Assembly (NCBI GenBank): GCA_020848455.1
Contig: JADLAB010000403.1
Location: forward strand, 1-61,304
DNA from: Polyangiaceae bacterium
GTDB taxonomy: Bacteria > Myxococcota_A > Polyangia > Polyangiales > Polyangiaceae
Length of the DNA stretch: 61,304 nt
Direction of reading: 5' to 3'
The position numbers were made by a program, and so were the translations under genes. The notes under the pieces are model-generated. The model did not search any database and had not been told where the DNA came from. It saw only the letters and a program-made list of their open reading frames with translations. Below, one piece after another: positions 8,813 through 53,716 of this stretch; the first letter of the stretch is position 1; every line of letters begins with the position of its first letter.

Positions 8813-10191
8813 GGCTGCGTCTCGGTGGCGGGGCGCTCGGTGGCGTCACGCCTCGACCGCTTGGTCCGCCGGGGGCGCGCCAGGCGACCGAGCGCCCGCG
8901 ACTCGAGCCGGTCGAGCCAGGCGGAGGCCCCGAGCACCGGGCGCACGAGCCAGCGCTCGAGCGCCGGCTCCACCGCGAAGCGCTCGAGCGCGAGGCGGTA
9001 CAGGAAGCGCCGGAGCCCGAGCCCGAGCCCCTCCCAGCGCGCCGCGGCCTCGTCGGGCTCCGTCCGGCCGAGCGCAGCCCGGCGGGCGAGCGCGTCCTTC
9101 AGGGTCGAGGGGGTGCGCAGGAACTGGTAGTAACGCAGCGTCGCGTGGGCCACGAGGTGGACGAGCGCGATGCGGTGGAGCCCGAGGCCGCACTCCACGA
9201 ACATGAGCCCGACCTGGCTGATCGTGGCGTGCGCGAGGGCGGTCTTGGCGTCGGCGCTCACCTGACCGCTGAGCGCGCCCATGGCCGCGGTCACGGCGCC
9301 CACGACGATGAGCACGGTCCGCGCCACCGGCGACGCATCGAGCAGGGGCGCGGTACGGAGCAACAGGTAGACGCCCGCATGCACCGACAGCCCGCCGTAG
9401 AACACGGCGCTCGAGGCCGTCGGACCCTCCATCGCGCGCGGGAGCCAGCCGCCCACGGGAAACTGCGCCGATTTGCCCATGGCGGCGACGATGAGCGCGA
9501 GGCCGACGGCGGTGGTCGGCACGAGCGCCGCCGTCGCGGGCGCGGCCGCGAGGCGACCGAGCTCGGCGAAGCTCGTGGTGTGGACCGCGAGGTGCAGCCA
9601 CACCGCGCCGAGCACGAGCCCCACGTCGCAGATGCGGTACGTGACGAGCACGCGGATGGCGGCCCGCACCGGTCCGGAGCGCTCGCGGAAGAACGCGACC
9701 AGCAGCACCGACGTCATGCCGACGACCTCCCAGCCCGCGAACACGAGCTCGAGCCGCGCGCCGAGCACGAGCACGAGCATGCCCGCGCCGAAGACGAGCA
9801 CGAGCAGGAAGAAGCGCGCGAAGCCCGGCTCGCGGTGGAGGTAGTTCACCGAGAACCTGCTCGTCGCGAGCAGCAGCACGCCCACGAGCAGCGCGACCGG
9901 GACGGAGGTCTCGTCGACCAGAAAGCCGAGCTCGAAGCCGTAGTCGCCGGCGTGGAACCAGTGCCCGAGATCGACCTCGAGCGCACCCGGCCCCGCGAGC
10001 AGCCACGCGGCGGTCGCGGCGAGCATGCTGGCGAAGGACAGCCACAGGCTGCCGAGCGCGATGCGCGCCACCCAGCGCTCGGCGGGCGGTCGGGGCAGGA
10101 GCACCAGCGCGCCGAGCACGAGCGCGCCGAGCGCGGGCCACGCCGGTGCCGTCACGCCCACGAGCGCGAGCGGCGACGGATCAGCGGACAT
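8809..10191 (-). CDS. dabB: DabB, NuoL-like energy-coupling subunit of inorganic-carbon pump
   Basis: 460 aa, multi-pass NuoL/MrpA-like protein. The channel residues of the family are present: Glu155 in GWEVVGM (TM5), Lys240 in MGKSAQFP (broken TM7) and Lys in DAKTALAHATISQ (TM12). The 85-residue spacing of Glu155 and Lys240 is what I recall for E. coli NuoL. In the characterised DAB system, DabB couples cation flow to DabA-driven CO2 hydration. Here the gene overlaps dabA by 11 bp and the NuoM-like gene by 4 bp. Its short length, compared with NuoL of about 600 aa, fits DabB-type proteins. Confidence 0.88.
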   Translation of the reverse strand: MSADPSPLALVGVTAPAWPALGALVLGALVLLPRPPAERWVARIALGSLWLSFASMLAATAAWLLAGPGALEVDLGHWFHAGDYGFELGFLVDETSVPVALLVGVLLLATSRFSVNYLHREPGFARFFLLVLVFGAGMLVLVLGARLELVFAGWEVVGMTSVLLVAFFRERSGPVRAAIRVLVTYRICDVGLVLGAVWLHLAVHTTSFAELGRLAAAPATAALVPTTAVGLALIVAAMGKSAQFPVGGWLPRAMEGPTASSAVFYGGLSVHAGVYLLLRTAPLLDASPVARTVLIVVGAVTAAMGALSGQVSADAKTALAHATISQVGLMFVECGLGLHRIALVHLVAHATLRYYQFLRTPSTLKDALARRAALGRTEPDEAAARWEGLGLGLRRFLYRLALERFAVEPALERWLVRPVLGASAWLDRLESRALGRLARPRRTKRSRRDATERPATETQP

Positions 10192-13100
10192 CGCTGCCGT
10201 CCTCCAGGCGGTGTCGGTTGCGTCGCACGGGTGAGCGCCCCACGAGGCGCGCCGGGGCGACGTACCCGAGCTTGCCGGCGTACCAGCTCGCCGCCTCGTC
10301 GACCTCCTCGAGCGTGCGCTCGGGTGGCGACCACGAGCGGAAGCCCCGTCCCGGCTCGTAGGTCGCGAACGAGCGGCCGTCCGGCGCGATGACCGAGACG
10401 CGGACCCACTCGTGGTCGACGAGCCGGGCGAGCGACGGCTGGCGTGCGACGATCGCGGCCAGGCGCTCGGTCTCGGTCTCGATGACGAGCTGCAGGCGGA
10501 GCGGCTCGTGGATCTCGATCATCTGCGTCGGCAGTCCGGTGCGCAGATCGCTGGAAGCGCCGTCGACCACGCCGAACAGTCCGGTCACGTTGTGCGGCAG
10601 CTTGGTGCCGGCACCGAGGCGCGGGTTGTCGACGGTCGAGAAGAAGTACTCGAGGTTGATGCCGGCACCGACGGGCGCCACCGCCAGGAGCACGCGCTCG
10701 AGGGTGCTGCCGTCCGCGTCGAGGGTCGGGTCGTAGGACACGAGGAAGGCGCGCCGATCGAGGAACAGGCCGCGCGAGATCAGGCGGCGTCCGACCACGC
10801 ACGACGCGTTGGTCGCATGTCCGAGCTCCGGCCGCGCCTGGCTGAGGTCGAAGGCGCGCCCCTCGACGTGGCGCAGCGCCTGCGCCGGCGTGGCGTCGCG
10901 CGGCGCGGACTCGAACTTGCGGCAGCGCTCGTGGGCGTTTCGGCGGCACGCCTCGGCGAGGGCGTCGCGCAGGGCGTCGAGGGCGGGCAGCCGCTCCGCC
11001 GGCAGCGCCTCGACGTCGAAGAACGTGACGGTGTCGGTCGAGGTGTCCTGCACGGCGCCCACGAACACCGTGGCATCGGGGACGTCGATCCCGCGCTCGC
11101 GCAGCCGCTCGCGCACCTCGCTGCGATTGGCCATGCGCGCGAACAGACGCGCGTTCGGTCCGCCGCTCCGGCCGCCGCAGGCGCCGCAGGAGTAGGCCGC
11201 GAAGTGCGGGTTGTTCACGCTCGACGAGTCGTGCCCCACGATGGCGACGAGCGGCGCGAAGCGCGTGGTGAGCCCGAGGCTCTCGAGCAGATCGCCCACG
11301 CGCGCCGCCTTCTCGTCGAGCTCGAAGCCGTCGAAGAGCTCGTCCGAGCGCTCGTCCGCGCTCGGTCGGACCGCGCCGGACGGACGGCCCGCGGTGAGGC
11401 GCGTGCGCGGGCTCGGCAAGAGGCGCCGCGCCAGCGAGCGCCGGAGCCGCCCGGCGACCCACGGTGCGAAGACGCTCGCGAGCAGCGGCAAGGCCGCGAG
11501 CAGACCGGAGGCCGCGGTCACGAGCGGCCCCCAGAGGAGCGAGCGCGAAGCGCGCGCGAAGGCCGCGTTCACCCGACCCCAGCGGCGCAGTCGTCGCTGG
11601 CGACGCAGCGCGAGCACGCGATGCTCCGAGGCCGGCTCCTCCTCGATGCGGTGGCGCGGCTCGATCACCACCGGACACAGGGGGAACGTGGTCGGATCGT
11701 CGATCCCCCGGTAGGCGATCGCGAGGTTGAAGAACCCCGCTGCGCCGAGCGTCTCGTGCGCCTCGGATAGCGCCTCGAAGTGCCGCCGCAGCGACTCGCT
11801 GCGGTCGTCGATGCAGGTCACGATCTGGAAGCGCGGGGTGGGCTCGGGCCGACGGTGCGGCACGTTGACCGCGAGGGCGTGGAGCACCTCGTCGCGGTAG
11901 TGGCGCTCGTAGGCCTCGTGCCAGATGCGCAGCCGCGCGGGCTCGTCGAACGCGTCGAGCACGCGCACGACCTCGGCCACGCCGGCGCGCCCGGCGCGCC
12001 GCAGCACCGGGGCGGACACGCCGGCGAGCTGGGCGACGCGGAACAGGGGCCAGGCCGTGTCGTGATCGCCGCGCGCGGCGGGCGGCGCGACGAGCGGCAA
12101 GGTGGCGCAGTGCGCGCCGAGCTCCGCGAGCGGGCCGCGGTGCCCGAGGCGGCGGCCCACGTCCGCCCACGCGAGCACGTCGAGGGTGAGCCGCACCGCG
12201 AGGAAATCGACGAGCCGCACGCGCGCGCTCGTGCGCCCGATCGAGCCCGCACCGTGCTCGAGCCGATGGAACATCCCGGCCCACCCCGGCAGGCGCAAGA
12301 GCGTGTGCTCGACGAAGGCGTCGAGATCGACGTCGGTGAGGCCGAGCTCGTCGACGAGCTCGAGCACGGCCCCCTCGGCGTCCACGCCGCGCCGCAGCCC
12401 GTCGCGCAGCCGCGCGCCCAGCCGCGACAGCCACGCGGCGCGGACGGCGTGGCCGCTCGTGAGCACGCGCCGCCACGCGTCGAAGAAGCCGGCCTCGCGG
12501 TCGGGCATGGACCACTGCGACTGGCCGCGATCCAGGAACGCGCCCGACAGGTGGATGAGCACCGGGTGCACGAGATCGTCCGGATCCTCGTGGCTCACGG
12601 CGGCGAGCTGCTCGGCGAGGCGCGAGGGGGCGCCACGCGGCGCGGCCGTCGCGGCCCCGGGGCTCGTGAGCTCGCGACAGGCGGTCCACAGCGCGCGCAC
12701 GGCCACCCGCTCGGCCCGGTCCTCGAGCGCCTCGAGCAGGGCCGCGCGCTTCGGCTTGATGCCGAGGATGGCGCCGAGCCGCGCCACCGGATCGCCGTCG
12801 GCGTCGCCGCAGACGAGGTGCGCGATGTTCCGGACGCCGTCGTCGCCGTAGACTTGCTCGCGCAGCCACCGGTACGTCTCGACCACGATGCGCTCCTGCG
12901 CGAGCGGCGAGCTGTCGGCCGCGAAGGCGTCGGCGGCGCCCCGCTCCGTGGTCGACCAGCGCACGCTGGCGGGCGTCTCGGCGCGCACGCCGTGCAGCAG
13001 CACCAGGCGCGCGAGCGCCGTGGCCGACGGGAAGCCCTCGACCGAGAGGCGGCAGGGCGGCGCGAGATCCGCGAGGGCGGCCGCGACCTCGGCCTCCGTG

Positions 13101-14354: not shown

Positions 14355-16208
14355 TCAGCGCAGGAGCAGGAAGTACGCCGCCGCACCACCGCCACCGAGC
14401 ACCACGAGGGCGCCGAGGACGATCCACAGCACCATCGACCCGCTCCGGCCGCCGCCGGTCACCTGCAGGGTGGCGGCCGAGAACGCTGCGTGCGCGGCCG
14501 CGTCGCTGCTCGACGGGCCGGCGGCGGAGCCGGGGACCGATGCGCCGGGCACGATCGACTCCGGCTGGGCGCTCGCGACCGGCGCAGGCGCGGTCGCGGG
14601 CTGGTTCACGATGATCCCACGCGGCTCGGCACTGCCCCCGCCGACCGGCGCGCGCGACGCGATCGGCGCCGCCACGACGGCCTGGGCGGCGAAATTGGCG
14701 CCGCCCGAGACCATGAGTCCGCGCTGCGAAGCGGGGGCCGCGTCGAGCGCGGGGCCCGCGGCGGGGGATGGCGCCGGGCCCGGTGACGACGCACGTGGCG
14801 GCGCGCCGGGCGCGGACGCGCGTGCGGGTGCGGCGGGCGGGCCCGAGCGCTGCGGCGGGACCGGAGGCTGCGGCCGACCGGACGCGGGGGCCTGGGCCTG
14901 CGAGCCCTGCGCGGCGACCGCGGGCGCTGCGGCCGCGGGCTGGCCCTGCAACTGCTGCTGGGCGTAGGCCTGCTGCTGCTGCACGTAGGCTTGCTGCTGG
15001 GCGTAGGCCTGCTGCTGCTGGGCGTAGGCCTGTTGCTGCTGGGCGTAGGCCTGTTGCTGCTGGGCGTAGGCCTGCTGCTGCGCGTGAGCCCGCTGCGCGC
15101 CCTGGGCTTGCGGCTGGGCCCCCGCCTGGGGCTGCGACGGCCGCGTGGAGGTCGGGCCCGGCTGCGCCGCTGGCGTGGGCCGCGTCGAGGACGGCGGCGC
15201 CTTGTCCGCGATCTTGTTGAACGCCTGGCGCAGGCGCATCGCCTGCTCGTTCGGCTTGGCGGCCGCGAAGGGATTCATCTGTCCCACGAACTGCGTCGCC
15301 TCGAGGTCGGCCTCGCCCGGATCGGCCGCCCCGGCGCCGAGGCGTGCGTTGATCGCGTTCACGTCGGCGAGCATCTGGCTGGCGAGCCGGTAGCGCACCT
15401 CGAGCGGCTTCGCGACGGCGCGCTCGATCACGGCCGCGAAGGGCGAGGTCTTGATCGCGTCGGGCAGCACGTGCGGGCGGTCCGAGCCCTGCGCCACGAA
15501 CAGGTCGAGCTCCTTGCCACCCTGCACGAGCGGGTGCCCGAGCAGCATCTCGGCCATCACGAGGCCGAACGCGTACACGTCGGCCGGGGGCCCCACCGCC
15601 TCGCTGCGCACCTGCTCCGGGGCCATGTAGCGCGGCGTGCCCACGAGCGCGCCGGCGCGCGTCACGTCCATGCGCTCGTTCGGGTTGTGGGCGATCTTGG
15701 CCGTGCCAAAGTCGAGGATCTGCACGATCTCGCCGATGGGTGTGCGGCACAGGTAGATGTTGGCCGGCTTGATGTCGCGGTGCGCGATGTCCATGCCGTG
15801 CGCCTTGTCGAGCGCGGACAGGACCTGCGCCGCGAAGCGGCCCGTGGTCGCGTAGTCGAGCGGACCCTCGGCGCGCAGCCGTTGCTCGAGCGTGCGACCC
15901 TCGAGCAGCGGAAACACGAGGAAGGGCAGGGCGCCCTCGTGGCCGTAATCGATGAGCCGCACCACGTGCGGGTGCTCGAGGCGCTTGACCACCTCGGCCT
16001 CGCGCGCGAAGCGCTGCTTCTCGCTGTCGCTGTCGAGGTGCTCGGCGTTCATCACCTTGAGGGCGACCACGAGCTGCATGCCGACCTTCTGCGCGCGGTA
16101 GACGCTGCCGCTGCCGCCCGCCCCCAGCAGGCCGACGATCCGGTAGCCGCCGACCACGGTGCCCGGTCGGAGCTCGCCCTCGAAATCGTCCTCTTCCTCG
16201 ACGCTCAC
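14355..16208 (-). CDS. Transmembrane Ser/Thr protein kinase with Gln-rich linker
   Basis: 617 aa from GTG 16208. The Pkn-type kinase domain (about residues 20-300) has a Gly-rich loop GAGGSGSVY, Lys51 in VALK, HRD at 143-145 and DFG at 166-168, all intact. It is followed by a long low-complexity linker with tandem Ala-Tyr-Ala-Gln repeats, Pro/Ala-rich sequence and one C-terminal membrane segment (VLWIVLGALVVLGGGGAAAYF). The kinase faces the cytoplasm with almost no periplasmic part. A CACAAT box ends 7 nt before the GTG. It follows the FHA protein gene by 90 bp on the same strand, suggesting a kinase/phosphothreonine-reader pair. Confidence 0.92.
   Translation of the reverse strand: MSVEEEDDFEGELRPGTVVGGYRIVGLLGAGGSGSVYRAQKVGMQLVVALKVMNAEHLDSDSEKQRFAREAEVVKRLEHPHVVRLIDYGHEGALPFLVFPLLEGRTLEQRLRAEGPLDYATTGRFAAQVLSALDKAHGMDIAHRDIKPANIYLCRTPIGEIVQILDFGTAKIAHNPNERMDVTRAGALVGTPRYMAPEQVRSEAVGPPADVYAFGLVMAEMLLGHPLVQGGKELDLFVAQGSDRPHVLPDAIKTSPFAAVIERAVAKPLEVRYRLASQMLADVNAINARLGAGAADPGEADLEATQFVGQMNPFAAAKPNEQAMRLRQAFNKIADKAPPSSTRPTPAAQPGPTSTRPSQPQAGAQPQAQGAQRAHAQQQAYAQQQQAYAQQQQAYAQQQQAYAQQQAYVQQQQAYAQQQLQGQPAAAAPAVAAQGSQAQAPASGRPQPPVPPQRSGPPAAPARASAPGAPPRASSPGPAPSPAAGPALDAAPASQRGLMVSGGANFAAQAVVAAPIASRAPVGGGSAEPRGIIVNQPATAPAPVASAQPESIVPGASVPGSAAGPSSSDAAAHAAFSAATLQVTGGGRSGSMVLWIVLGALVVLGGGGAAAYFLLLR
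14955..15090. repeat. 21-bp tandem repeat encoding Gln/Ala/Tyr linker
   Basis: About six copies of a 21-bp unit (GGCGTAGGCCTGCTGCTGCT with variants) lie within the kinase gene. The copies are nearly identical at the DNA level, so the array probably expands and contracts by slippage. Confidence 0.8.
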
Positions 16209-49124: not shown

Positions 49125-51026
49125 GTGAAAGCGCTCGTCAAAGTCGGCTACGGGTGCAACGAGCACTGCACCTTCTGCCACACGGCCGACGTGCGCGAGC
49201 TCGACGACACCGATGCCCGGGTGCGCAGGAAGATCGAGCGCGCCGCGGAGCTCGGCTACACGATGACGGTGCTGTCGGGCGGCGAGCCCACGCGCCGGCC
49301 CGAGCTCCGGGCCTGGGCGCGCCTCGTCGCCGCGTGCGGCATGGACCTCGGGCTCGTGACCAACGGCCTGTTGCTGTCGTACCCCGAGATCGTGGACGAG
49401 CTCGTCGAGCAGAGCCGCCTGCGCTACGTGTACATGTCGCTCCACGGCGGCACGGCACGCGTCCACGCCTCGCTCACGCGCGCCGACACCTTCGACCGCG
49501 CGGTCGCCGCCGTCGGGCTCGTGCACGGGCGCGTGCCCGACTTCACCGTGAACTGCGTGGTCACGCGCCAGAACGTCGCGCACCTCGTGCCGCTCGTGGA
49601 CCGGCTCGCGGGGTACCCCGAGCTCACGCTCAAGTTCTCCATGACCCAGCCGAAGGGGGCGGCCGCGGCGGCCTTCGAGACGGTCGTGCCCGACGTGGAA
49701 ACGTGCGCGCGTGCCGTGGCGGCGGCCATCGCTCACGGGCACGCCCGGCGAGCGGCCGAGGGCTCCGGCCCGCGCTTCGCGCACGACGGCATCCCCTTCT
49801 GCCTCATGCCCGGTCTCGAGGAGCTCTACGACGACCTCAAGACGCACGACTTCGCTACCATGGTCGAGGTGGACGAGGACGACTTCGTCCCGGTGGACGA
49901 CGTGGACAAGGTGCACCTCGAGCCGTGTCAGGGCTGCGCGCTTCGCGGGCCGTGTCCGGGCCTCTACCGCGGCTACCACGAGCGCCGCGGCGCGCCCGCG
50001 CTCGCGCCGTGCACGAACCGACCGCGCCCGAACTCCTTCCACTACGTGCCCGAGCGAGACCTCGCGTGGGCGCGGGGGGCGCCGTGCCCGGTAGAGCTCG
50101 CCGGCACGAGTCCCTACGATCACGGCCGTACGCTGTTCCTGCGCCTGCGCGACCGGCTGCGCCTGGTGCGCACGAAGAGCCGCGACTTCACCGATCGCGA
50201 GATCACCGCCACGAAGGCGCTCGGGCAGGTGTACCTCGACGTGTCGAGCAAGGTCGCGCCCGACGACTTCGCGCGCGACTTCGCGGCGCTGCGCCCGGCG
50301 CGCGAGTGCACGGGCTGCGCGGTGCGCGGCGCCTGCACCGGCGCCTTCGAGCTCGAGCGCGGCGACGTGTTCGCGCGCGACGACGCGCGGCTCGTGGCGA
50401 TCCTGGGCGAGCTCGCGGGCCAGGTGCTCGACCTCGGCTGCGGCGAGGGGCGTTACCTCGAGGCCCTGCGGCCGCGCGCGGAGCGGGGCGAGGTCGCCTA
50501 CACCGGCGTCGACCCCGACCCGGCGCGGCTCGCGGCGCTCGGGCGGCGCTTCGCCTTCGCGCGCTTCGTCGTGGGCAGCGGCGAGGAGCTCGATCCGGCG
50601 CTGGGACCCTTCGATCACGTGCTCGTCCTGCGCAGCTGGAACCACCTCGCGAGCCCGGCGCGGGCGCTCGCGCGGGCGCTCGCCCTCTTGCGCCCGGGCG
50701 GCACCCTCACCCTCGTCGACAACGTCGCCTTCGGGCTCGTGCGGCAGCGCGACGCCGCGGAGCGCGCCGAGCGCGCGCCGGCGGTCGGCTTCGAGCACTA
50801 CCGCAACGACGGCGCCGAGGCCGCGAGCGCGCTCTGCACCCGACTGCCGCTGCGGCTGTGCGAGCGACGCGACGTCGCGCCGGGCAGCTCGAACCAGTGG
50901 CTGTTGCGCTACGAGCGCCTCGCCGGGCCGGTGGTCGCGGCGGGCCCGAGCGCGAGCCGTGAGGACCGGGAGCACGAACGCGCGCTCTCCGACGGAGCCC
51001 CGCGCGGGGTCGAGGTGACGGCATGA
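49125..51026 (+). CDS. Radical SAM protein fused to SAM methyltransferase
   Basis: 633 aa. Radical SAM cluster C11-x3-C15-x2-C18 (CNEHCTFC), SGGEPT and further core segments occupy residues 1-260. Two C-x2-C-x5-C-x-G motifs (CQGCALRGPCPGLYRG and CTGCAVRGACTGAF) suggest auxiliary iron-sulfur sites, as in SPASM/twitch proteins. From about residue 430 there is a class I methyltransferase (VLDLGCGEGRYLEAL, VDPDPARL, LRPGGTLTLVDNV). Substrate unknown. GTG 49125 follows a TACCAT box. Its stop overlaps the second radical SAM gene by ATGA, so the two are obligate partners. Confidence 0.9.
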   Translation: MKALVKVGYGCNEHCTFCHTADVRELDDTDARVRRKIERAAELGYTMTVLSGGEPTRRPELRAWARLVAACGMDLGLVTNGLLLSYPEIVDELVEQSRLRYVYMSLHGGTARVHASLTRADTFDRAVAAVGLVHGRVPDFTVNCVVTRQNVAHLVPLVDRLAGYPELTLKFSMTQPKGAAAAAFETVVPDVETCARAVAAAIAHGHARRAAEGSGPRFAHDGIPFCLMPGLEELYDDLKTHDFATMVEVDEDDFVPVDDVDKVHLEPCQGCALRGPCPGLYRGYHERRGAPALAPCTNRPRPNSFHYVPERDLAWARGAPCPVELAGTSPYDHGRTLFLRLRDRLRLVRTKSRDFTDREITATKALGQVYLDVSSKVAPDDFARDFAALRPARECTGCAVRGACTGAFELERGDVFARDDARLVAILGELAGQVLDLGCGEGRYLEALRPRAERGEVAYTGVDPDPARLAALGRRFAFARFVVGSGEELDPALGPFDHVLVLRSWNHLASPARALARALALLRPGGTLTLVDNVAFGLVRQRDAAERAERAPAVGFEHYRNDGAEAASALCTRLPLRLCERRDVAPGSSNQWLLRYERLAGPVVAAGPSASREDREHERALSDGAPRGVEVTA

Positions 51027-52726
51027 CGGACCACGGAGCCGTGCGCGCCTCGGGAGCGGCGCGCCGACTGCGCGTCCTCTCGCACGAGGAGGCCGCGCAC
51101 GAGAAGCGCAACTGGGTGCGCCTCACGCACGACTGCAACAACCACTGCATCTTCTGCCTCGACACCGAGGCGCACAACGGGACGATGCGCGCGGTCGATG
51201 CCATCAAGGCGCAGATCGTCGCGGGGCGGAGGCGCGGCGCCGAGCGGCTCATCCTGTCGGGCGGCGAGCCCACCATGCACCCCAACTTCCTCGATTTCGT
51301 GCGGCTCGGGCAGCGGGCGGGCTACCCCAAGATCCAGACCGTGACGAACGGTCGCATGTTCGCCTATCCGGAGTTCCTCGCCGGGGCGGCCGAGGCGGGC
51401 CTGCACGAGATCACCTTCTCCGTGCACGGACACACCGCAAAGCTCCACGACGCGCTCGTCGGCACGCCGGGCGCCTTCGAGGAAGAGACGGCGGGGCTGC
51501 GCGCGGCGCTCGCCTCCGCGCGCTTCATCGTCAACGTCGACATCGTCATCAACAAGCTCAACGTCGCGCACCTCGCCGACATGCTCGAGACCTTCATCGG
51601 CTGGGGCGTGAAGGAGTTCGATCTGCTGCAGGTCATTCCCTTCGGCGCCGCCTGGGGCAGCGCGCGCGAGCACCTGTTCTACGACCTCGAGGGCAACCTC
51701 GAGCACCTGCAGCGCGCCTTCGCCTACTCGCTGCGGCCCGACGTGCACCTGTGGCTGAACCGCTTTCCGCCGGCCTTCGCCGAGGGCTTCGAGGAGCTCA
51801 TCCAGGACCCCTACAAGCTCCACGACGAGGTGCGCGGGCGGCGCGAGGAGTTCGACCGCTACCTCGCGTTCGGCAAGAAGCTCGACTGCCGCGAGCCCGA
51901 GCGCTGCCGGCGCTGCTACCTCGAGGAGCTGTGCGACGGGCTCGAGGGCGTGGTGCTCGAGGCGCGCGCCCCGCAGCTCGAGCGCGTGCGCGTGGTGGCG
52001 CCGCTGTCGAGGGCGATGCCGCTCCCGAAGGCGGTGCGCGCGTGGATCGTCGCGCCGGACGTGGACCAGGCGGTCGCGGTGGCGCGCGAGCTAGGCGTCG
52101 AGGAGCTCGAGCTCGAGCTCGAGCGCACGGCCGGGCTCGCCGCGCGGCTCGAGCGCGACGTCGCGGGCGAGGTGCGCCTCGCGGGCCGGCCGGTGCGGCG
52201 GGTGCACGCGCGCGACGCCGCGCGTGCCCGGGAGCTCCTGGCGATCGACGCTCCCTTCGAGGTCCTGCTCGAGCTGCGGCGCGACACCGCGCCCTTCGCC
52301 CTCGAGCTCGCGCGGGCGGGAGGCGCCGCGCTCGGGCGGCTCGCGCTGCGGCAGCCGAACCACGTGCTCGTGACCGAGGCGCGCGCGCACGACGTGGACC
52401 TCGAGGCCTTCGCAGCCGAGCTCGACGCGGCGTGCGGGGACCGCGCGCCCGCCGGGAGCCCCGCCATCGAGAACGCGCCTCGCTGTCTCGTGGGCGCGCG
52501 CGCCCGGCCGATGCGCGCCACCCTCGACGCGGCGATGCTCGGGTCGGACGGGCGGGTCGACATGGGGCGGTACACCGAGCGCTTCGTGGCGGAGCGCTCC
52601 TACGGTCACGCGCTCCGCTGCGGAGGCTGCGCCGCGCGCTCCCAGTGCGCGGGCGTGCACATCAACTGGGTGCGGGCGCACGGCTTCGCGGCGCTCGATC
52701 CGGCCGCCTGCGCGCGCTCGACCTGA
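51023..52726 (+). CDS. Radical SAM protein with SPASM-like C-terminal cysteines
   Basis: 567 aa. CNNHCIFC (C38, C42, C45) and LSGGEPT define the radical SAM domain. CRRCYLEELCDGLEG at about residue 293 and CGGCAARSQCAGVHINWVRAHG near the end are two C-x2-C-x5-C-x-G motifs. Residues about 320-490 form an insert of alternating helix/strand, rich in Arg/Glu, that I cannot assign. Together with the preceding protein it forms a coupled pair; peptide- or cofactor-modifying activity is the best guess, unproven. Confidence 0.88.
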   Translation: MTDHGAVRASGAARRLRVLSHEEAAHEKRNWVRLTHDCNNHCIFCLDTEAHNGTMRAVDAIKAQIVAGRRRGAERLILSGGEPTMHPNFLDFVRLGQRAGYPKIQTVTNGRMFAYPEFLAGAAEAGLHEITFSVHGHTAKLHDALVGTPGAFEEETAGLRAALASARFIVNVDIVINKLNVAHLADMLETFIGWGVKEFDLLQVIPFGAAWGSAREHLFYDLEGNLEHLQRAFAYSLRPDVHLWLNRFPPAFAEGFEELIQDPYKLHDEVRGRREEFDRYLAFGKKLDCREPERCRRCYLEELCDGLEGVVLEARAPQLERVRVVAPLSRAMPLPKAVRAWIVAPDVDQAVAVARELGVEELELELERTAGLAARLERDVAGEVRLAGRPVRRVHARDAARARELLAIDAPFEVLLELRRDTAPFALELARAGGAALGRLALRQPNHVLVTEARAHDVDLEAFAAELDAACGDRAPAGSPAIENAPRCLVGARARPMRATLDAAMLGSDGRVDMGRYTERFVAERSYGHALRCGGCAARSQCAGVHINWVRAHGFAALDPAACARST

Positions 52727-52756: not shown

Positions 52757-53509
52757 CTACTTGGTGGGGCTGACCTTGCAGTCCGAGAGCTGGCCGACGG
52801 GCCAGCCGCTGCCTGGCAACCAGCCGTCGCGCTGGTGCCAGCGGATGAAGGTGTCCTGGCTCATGCCCTTGACCTCGAACTTGCAGTCCACGCTGAAGCG
52901 CGGGCTCTGCGTCGCCCCCTTCTCCTTGTCGAGCTTCTCCTTGAGCGCCGGCTGCGCCCACAGCCCGGCTCCGAGGATCTGGCCCGCCTGATCCACGGTC
53001 GTGTAGGGCTGCAGCAGGGTCGCGTCCTCGAGGGGCTTCTGGCCCTTCGGCGAGGGCTTGTTCGCCTGCGACTCGAAGGCGCAGTGCAGGTCGCCGACGT
53101 CGGCGGGCATGGCGCAGCCGAGCTCGCGCAGATCGTCCACCGTCAGCGTGAGGGCGATGTCGTAGGTCTTGCCCGCGACGTAGCGTGCGCTCGGCGCCCC
53201 GCCCCCGCCGCTGCCCATCTGACCCACGATGGCGAACGCGGCGGCGAGCCCGCCCACGAGGCCGATGAAGATGACGATGTTGCGGGTGGAGGTCCCGCCA
53301 CCCTTCGGAGCCGCGGCGGCCGGGGGGCGTCGCCGGGGCCGCGACGCGGCTCGCTCGGGAGCAGGCGGCGGCTCCGCAGGCTCGTCGCCGGACGCGCCCT
53401 CGTCGTCGGGCCCGTCGTGGGCCTCGTCCTCGTCGTCGGAACCGGCGTCGTCCTCGACGTCGTCCTTGCCCTCGTCCTCGTCCTTCGTGTCGTCCGCTTC
53501 TCGTGCCAT
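52757..53509 (-). CDS. Membrane protein with acidic N-terminus, function unknown
   Basis: 250 aa. The N-terminal 60 residues are Asp/Glu-rich, followed by an Arg/Pro-rich stretch and one membrane helix (NIVIFIGLVGGLAAAFAIV, about residues 81-99), then an extracytoplasmic domain with four Cys (CAMPADVGDLHCAF, then CKFEV and CKVSPTK). No family recognised. ATG 53509 has GAGGG about 9 nt upstream; an in-frame GTG at 53551 sits directly on a TATAGG box, so it is not used. It is not clearly linked to the radical SAM genes (convergent). Confidence 0.78.
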   Translation of the reverse strand: MAREADDTKDEDEGKDDVEDDAGSDDEDEAHDGPDDEGASGDEPAEPPPAPERAASRPRRRPPAAAAPKGGGTSTRNIVIFIGLVGGLAAAFAIVGQMGSGGGGAPSARYVAGKTYDIALTLTVDDLRELGCAMPADVGDLHCAFESQANKPSPKGQKPLEDATLLQPYTTVDQAGQILGAGLWAQPALKEKLDKEKGATQSPRFSVDCKFEVKGMSQDTFIRWHQRDGWLPGSGWPVGQLSDCKVSPTK

Positions 53510-53716
53510 GTCGTCGGCCCTCGTCGCGGGCGGGCCCGCGAGGCGGCTCACCTATAGCCCAGCCCGGCAGGGAGGGGAAAGGCGGGCGTGCGCCCCTGAT
53601 CCGGCGGCGAGGTTCTTGCGCGCACTGGGCGCCAGGCCCCCGGCGTCCGACGCCGACTCCGGGGACCGGAGGTCGGCTCGGGAAGGACTCGCTCGGGCAC
53701 GGGGCTCGGCGGGGCC

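Follow-up and report, generated by a model that had tools for sequence, protein, structure and literature searches.

What do two coupled radical S-adenosylmethionine (SAM) enzymes act on when no substrate gene lies beside them? The question is raised by a 61,304-nt contig of a Polyangiaceae bacterium (JADLAB010000403.1, assembly GCA_020848455.1; contig C407 of a 9.2-Mb genome with 78 radical SAM matches), hereafter the window, which carries two such genes, RS1 and RS2. An original prediction, made from the letters alone, had described two radical SAM open reading frames sharing ATGA, with no adjacent precursor peptide. The list of open reading frames places both genes and their four-base overlap exactly there (Table 1), and the proposed small-gene scan, run in six frames over the whole window, found neither a His-Xaa-Ser (HxS)-type repeat nor an LPSF-type precursor; a precursor adjoining the pair was rejected. 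Genome content and gene order in relatives instead point to a partner at a distance: we put at about 0.9 the probability that RS1 and RS2 are maturases of an HxsA4-type His-Xaa-Ser peptide.

The presence of the pair follows that of the peptide across genomes. RS2 was found in 30 and RS1 or its parts in 27 of 59 relatives. The HxsD-like family (NF038315) accompanied 28 of the 30 RS2-positive relatives and none of the 29 RS2-negative ones (Fisher p = 8e-15), and a strict repeat pattern was matched in 25/30 and 0/29, respectively (p = 5e-12 on these strict counts). A relaxed repeat pattern, applied to eight genomes only, located the repeat in the remaining five RS2 genomes (G016, G017, G024, G044, and G055), bringing the count to 30/30, and detected none in the three genomes with HxsD but without RS2. 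Two genomes with HxsD that lack RS1, RS2, and HxsD-like (G020 and G041) carry a different repeat, of the type HRSHQSHRS. Surveying 379 genomes of the phylum with an HxsA4 match threshold of E 1e-9 or better, we scored HxsA4 in 126 and RS2 in 122, both being present in 113 (p = 1.5e-69), and RS1 in 71, 68 of which also harbor HxsA4 (p = 8.5e-36).

In the window's genome, the precursor gene maps to the minus strand of another contig (C568:31806-32078, equivalent to L162 11807-12079) and encodes 90 residues (MSAENKKLPSFKRS...GGVIPAQHC(SHG)12SW), with an LPSF leader followed by QHC(SHG)12SW. It scores 98.3 bits against NCBIfam HxsA4 (cut-off 55) and is surrounded by genes for a c12 protein, an HxsC-type radical SAM protein, a second radical SAM protein of the c28 type, HxsD (TIGR03976, 50.8 bits; cut-off 50), HxsD-like (57.3 bits; cut-off 41), and HxsB. 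The substrate that the original prediction had thought may lie elsewhere is likely this precursor. The HxsB adjoining it (L162 7452-8879) falls under the model cut-off and lacks CX3CX2C, likewise in the sister genome (L163); it is possibly a catalytically dead partner, the intact HxsB being encoded on C498 (TIGR03978, 544 bits; cut-off 370) beside an HxsC-type gene. In relatives, small genes adjoining HxsB have in common the LPSF leader and a perfect-repeat core, (A/G)QHC(SHG)nSW, with 7 to 58 HGS units per precursor. The Ser, Gly, and His codons of these arrays vary while the peptide repeat remains perfect, which argues for selection on the protein. The longest repeats observed, of 34 and 58 units, belong to two precursors at one locus (L217). 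A second HxsA4-like match in the window's genome (C567, 57.8 bits; L338 ~2440-2710), adjoining a 754-residue open reading frame, was set aside as a low-complexity frame without LPSF leader. Members of the c12 family (~100-200 residues, some with a Tat-like RR start; L162 12105-12614, L083 5086-5595, L086 13261, and others) lie beside HxsC/HxsA4 genes in most loci, and NCBIfam gave no match for the members tested. HxsA4 loci are also often flanked by genes for very Cys-rich proteins (38-169 Cys; L162 13097-15457, L164, L165, L167, L170, and L172).

Gene order in relatives provided the second line of evidence (Table 1). In Plesiocystis pacifica SIR-1 (L229), an alpha-ketoglutarate HExxH-type gene, an HxsC-type gene, and c12 are divergent from the cluster that runs from RS1 to HxsA4. 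Together, co-occurrence and the operons of relatives place the pair within the HxsA4 system, and the proposal that it forms a candidate new pathway by itself is not supported. One genome is assembled as a single 11.39-Mb contig (G033); its repeat maps to 394,771 and its pair to 8,216,651-8,220,156, a separation of ~3.6 Mb should the contig be circular. Because the genes are clustered in relatives yet so distant here, the RS1-RS2 pair is, as judged from gene order, a part split off from a system whose genes often lie together. RiPP (ribosomally synthesized and post-translationally modified peptide) enzymes and their precursor may therefore sit megabases apart; neighborhood-based mining would miss such cases, and co-occurrence can find them. 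Furthermore, an orphan enzyme pair gains a concrete, short, and easily expressed candidate substrate, which makes His-Xaa-Ser peptide chemistry directly testable. As a separate observation, other families repeatedly have an alpha-ketoglutarate HExxH-type peptide beta-hydroxylase gene at their HxsA4 or RS1 loci (L073 11432-12565, L173, L174, L214, L223, L224, and L229).

Table 1. Positions of RS1, RS2, and their parts in the window, and arrangement of related genes in other genomes.
Feature	Coordinates	Strand	Description
RS1	49125..51026	+	GTG start, 633 residues; radical SAM, Twitch-like domain, second Cys motif, C-terminal class I methyltransferase
RS1 radical SAM core, residues 1-215	49125..49769	+	PF04055; AlphaFold; VIA-align to SkfB, viperin, SuiB
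RS1 Twitch-like domain, residues 216-296	49770..50012	+	C226, C268, C271, C277; homologous to RS2 end
RS1 linker	50013..50375	+	C321, C395, C398, C404; invariant columns
RS1 class I SAM methyltransferase domain, residues 418-600	50376..50924	+	Pfam; fold matches to many class I methyltransferases
RS2	51023..52726	+	ATG start, 567 residues; radical SAM protein, two auxiliary Cys sites
RS2 radical SAM core, residues 26-285	51098..51877	+	PF04055; structural matches
RS2 first auxiliary Cys site	51887..51934	+	C289, C295, C298, C304; invariant in 19-21 sequences
RS2 insert, residues ~318-480	51974..52462	+	alpha/beta domain without conserved Cys; pLDDT mostly >90
RS2 C-terminal Twitch-like domain	52463..52708	+	C488, C533, C536, C542; invariant
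Plesiocystis pacifica SIR-1 (L229)	RS1 9839-11863; HxsA4 14476-14787	all +	RS1, HxsD, HxsD-like, HxsB, HxsA4
L225 (Nannocystaceae)			HxsC type, RS1, HxsD, HxsD-like, HxsB, HxsA4, HxsC4
L226			RS1, HxsD, HxsD-like, HxsA4 (two copies)
L344 (G062)		one strand	RS2, c28 radical SAM, c12, HxsD, HxsD-like, HxsB, HxsA4
L339 (G055)			HxsA4 repeat, HxsC type, RS2
L066 (G004)			HxsA4 (two copies), radical SAM, RS2, RS1; both HxsA4 copies <=3 kb from the pair
L073 (G048)			RS1, HExxH peptide beta-hydroxylase-type gene (TIGR04267, 6.2e-24), RS2; overlapping

We further assessed what the two proteins could contribute to such a pathway. RS1 matches the Pfam family Radical_SAM (PF04055) at residues 6-159 (1.3e-20), with an intact CX3CX2C motif (C11/C15/C18), and Methyltransf_25/11/23/12 at residues 428-535 (1.2e-14). 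The latter match and its intact motifs agree with the earlier statement that RS1 ends in a class I SAM methyltransferase; G432, D436, G438, G440, D497, N506, H507, and D532 are invariant in the alignment of this domain. RS2 matches Radical_SAM at residues 34-189 (4.4e-16), also with an intact motif (C38/C42/C45), and no further Pfam family over the cut-off. A B12-binding domain over the Pfam cut-off was found in neither protein, as had been noted. AlphaFold returned confident models, with a predicted local distance difference test (pLDDT) of 82.6 and a predicted template modeling score (pTM) of 0.81 for RS1, and with a mean pLDDT of 88.1 and a pTM of 0.86 for RS2. Structural matches of the modeled radical SAM cores were SkfB, viperin, BlsE, and SuiB, the RS2 core aligning to viperin (Z 19.8, root-mean-square deviation (rmsd) 2.7, 223 aligned), SkfB (Z 19.4, rmsd 3.2, 242 aligned), and BlsE (Z 19.1, rmsd 4.0, 259 aligned).

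Conserved-column alignments of 24 RS1-type and 19 RS2-type proteins, besides wider alignments, revealed three conserved Cys sets per protein, in RS1 and RS2 alike. The extra sets would bind Fe-S clusters: the four Cys of the RS1 Twitch-like domain, kept in 24/24 aligned sequences, are likely ligands of an auxiliary cluster, and those of the linker form a possible further Fe-S site. The long insert that had been described in RS2 is real, the proposed structure prediction yielding an ordered and confidently modeled alpha/beta domain. It may be a degenerate partial barrel; comparison of the insert with the profile of the RS2 barrel gave no significant match (hhalign probability 5%), and a second radical SAM barrel was rejected on these grounds. 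As for the SPASM-like end attributed to RS2, an end with conserved Cys is present but Pfam gives no SPASM there. Since it is homologous to the post-barrel Cys domain of RS1 (against RS1 residues 218-296, hhalign probability 91.7%, E 7.7e-7), it is better termed Twitch-like. Elsewhere in the genome, a further radical SAM gene lies between two diverged RS2 paralogues (~31-32% identical; C194; L080 3-4847), and this 11.9-kb contig has no repeat precursor.

The methyltransferase domain of RS1 is, on its distribution among relatives, conserved and no fusion artefact, a weakness that the original prediction had anticipated for itself. Another 17 genomes of the order encode fused radical SAM-methyltransferase relatives, 49-94% identical to RS1; a contig end interrupts one of these copies. 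At four loci (L083, L084, L085, and L086), the part of RS1 from approximately residue 300 onward is a separate gene, which keeps the linker Cys set. This gene lies downstream of HxsD and HxsD-like, and RS2 follows it at three of the four loci; at L087-L089, the radical SAM domain of RS1 is fused to RS2. These split and fused arrangements suggest that RS1, its methyltransferase, and RS2 are interchangeable modules of one system.

Comparison with NCBIfam gave HxsC4 as the best match of both proteins, HxsC also scoring high: RS1 and RS2 reached 81.7 and 114.4 bits against HxsC4 (cut-off 500), and 48.5 and 93.8 bits against HxsC (cut-off 267.9). With scores far under the cut-off, their assignment as HxsC4 proper was rejected; by profile comparison they are relatives of the HxsC4/HxsC radical SAM proteins, not members of those models. 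The NCBIfam models for HxsA4-type His-Xaa-Ser systems are HxsA4 (NF038313), HxsB (TIGR03978), HxsC4 (NF038332), HxsD (TIGR03976), and HxsD-like (NF038315), and this set holds none for RS1 or RS2. Clear relatives of the pair in named collections are from Myxococcota, mostly Polyangia (Polyangium, Nannocystis, Plesiocystis, and Sandaracinus).

Regarding other genes of the window, the TlpA-like gene is divergent, as had been reported, and was dropped as a partner of the pair, its position being kept only in the sister genome (G001). Convergent to RS2, a minus-strand gene (52757-53551) encodes a protein with one likely membrane helix, four Cys, and no Pfam match, relatives of which occupy the corresponding place in the sister genome and G015 and lie near the pair in G031.

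These data lead us to propose a pathway in which the precursor would be supplied in trans, in this genome from C568, and HxsD and HxsD-like would help present its leader to the enzymes. HxsB, the HxsC types, RS1, and RS2 would then move along the repeat, His-Gly-Ser unit by unit, and would act by means of a 5'-deoxyadenosyl radical, most likely to oxidize or crosslink His i to Ser i+2. With its class I domain, RS1 could methylate the peptide from SAM at an imidazole N, at a Ser O, or in the C-terminal region; this would precede or follow the radical step, with the peptide still bound. RS2, with two auxiliary Cys sites, would be the general partner and RS1 the methylation branch. Peptide methylation by RS1 has, in our judgment, roughly even odds, while His-Ser crosslinking in the repeats, suggested by their spacing, is a tentative proposal. 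Foldseek ranked OvsM first for the RS1 model (E 4.4e-8; the phmmer match is weak, 2.5e-4); this 5-selenohistidine N-methyltransferase was considered together with OvoA (PDB 9bxh, 8khq) as a histidine-derivative enzyme. However, many other class I enzymes tie with or outrank OvsM in VIA-align, so the methyl acceptor of RS1 is not readable from this match, which was rejected as proof of histidine methylation. An improbable extension is a periodic polymer, in which each of the 7-58 His-Gly-Ser units is crosslinked His-Ser by the dispersed radical SAM enzymes and RS1 N-methylates the imidazoles; if true, it would be a rod-like, probably metal-binding peptide of undescribed kind.

The pair could also act on HxsA4 without crosslinking the repeats, a variant within the same pathway whose probability overlaps with that given above. 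RS1 would then methylate either the Ser-Trp at the C-terminus or the lone Cys/His with which the repeat starts, and RS2 would perform oxidation, epimerisation, or thioether formation at the repeat start or the C-terminal site. We regard this as rather unlikely. In RS1-positive genomes, all main precursors that were read end in SHGSW, which may mark a C-terminal methylation site, and SHGQW was read in RS1-negative genomes and second loci; furthermore, HC is nearly constant ahead of the repeats and the tied fold matches of RS1 include the RiPP methyltransferases LahSb and CgnL. On the other hand, the SW/QW split may only mark lineages, several RS1-negative genomes ending in SW too, and selection seems to bear mainly on the repeats, which reach 58 perfect units. 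Far less probable is that HxsA4 is a mere companion and the pair modifies another linked protein, either c12 or a very Cys-rich one. Genes of both kinds recur beside HxsA4/HxsC genes, but these genomes commonly encode Cys-rich proteins, no gene of either kind adjoins the pair in the window, and overlapping operons put RS1/RS2 relatives with HxsD, HxsB, and HxsA4. Some radical SAM and methyltransferase proteins modify tRNA or cofactors, and the original prediction had named both beside peptides; of these the peptide stands, whereas action on tRNA or a small cofactor precursor, with only phylogeny in common with Hxs genes, is barely credible, for although clear RS1/RS2 relatives all come from one phylum, their presence tracks HxsA4 inside one family where many genera have neither, and gene overlaps and shared operons tie them to Hxs genes.

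Several points weigh against RS1 and RS2 as HxsA4 maturases or against parts of the proposed chemistry. Both proteins score far under the HxsC4 and HxsC cut-offs, and the pair is far from the precursor in the window's genome and in G033. The co-occurrence p values treat genomes as independent and ignore shared ancestry. At the threshold applied, RS1 is absent from approximately half of the genomes with HxsA4, which indicates that methylation is not general in the HxsA4 system. Finally, crosslinking and the methyl acceptor are suggested solely by spacing and domain content.

How does the pair compare with known systems? No characterized orthologous enzyme pair, the other outcome against which the original prediction had been set, was found in the families, structures, and literature searched. 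Radical SAM enzymes of triceptides, which contain a three-residue cyclophane, join the aromatic ring of residue i to Cbeta of i+2; HaaB and YhhB connect C2 of His to Cbeta of i+2, and MscB connects Phe to Cbeta of Ser (PMC11002830). The period of three in His-Gly-Ser matches this i/i+2 spacing, which as spacing only is a weak criterion. We know of no triceptide with 7-58 identical units or a fused methyltransferase. With RiPP methyltransferases the pair would share the proposed SAM-dependent methylation of a ribosomal peptide (PMC11285071). Unlike the radical SAM methyltransferases of classes A-C treated in that 2024 review, RS1 couples radical SAM to a class I domain of the classical type. 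The same text, searched by term, returned nothing on histidine or on a radical SAM-class I fusion (PMC11285071). Unlike the cobalamin-dependent (class B) enzymes, RS1 and RS2 have no B12-binding match.

HxsA4, HxsB, HxsC4, HxsD, and HxsD-like are already named families, HxsB/HxsC being credited to Haft and Basu (PMC9062424), and the system is known in silico. For its product or reaction we found no report in the open-access literature; closed journals may differ. As far as we can tell, what is new are RS1/RS2 as near-constant HxsA4 partners, the radical SAM-methyltransferase fusion, and the gene dispersal. The window's genome shares with the modeled HxsA4 system the repeat precursor, HxsB, an HxsC-type radical SAM protein, HxsD, and HxsD-like, and in relatives these genes share operons with those of RS1/RS2 relatives. 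It departs from that system in the RS1 fusion and the two-site RS2, in HxsC-type proteins scoring under the HxsC4 cut-off, and in genes dispersed over several loci. Judged by domain content and distribution, the RS1 fusion and RS2 look like unmodeled core members of the HxsA4 system in Myxococcota.

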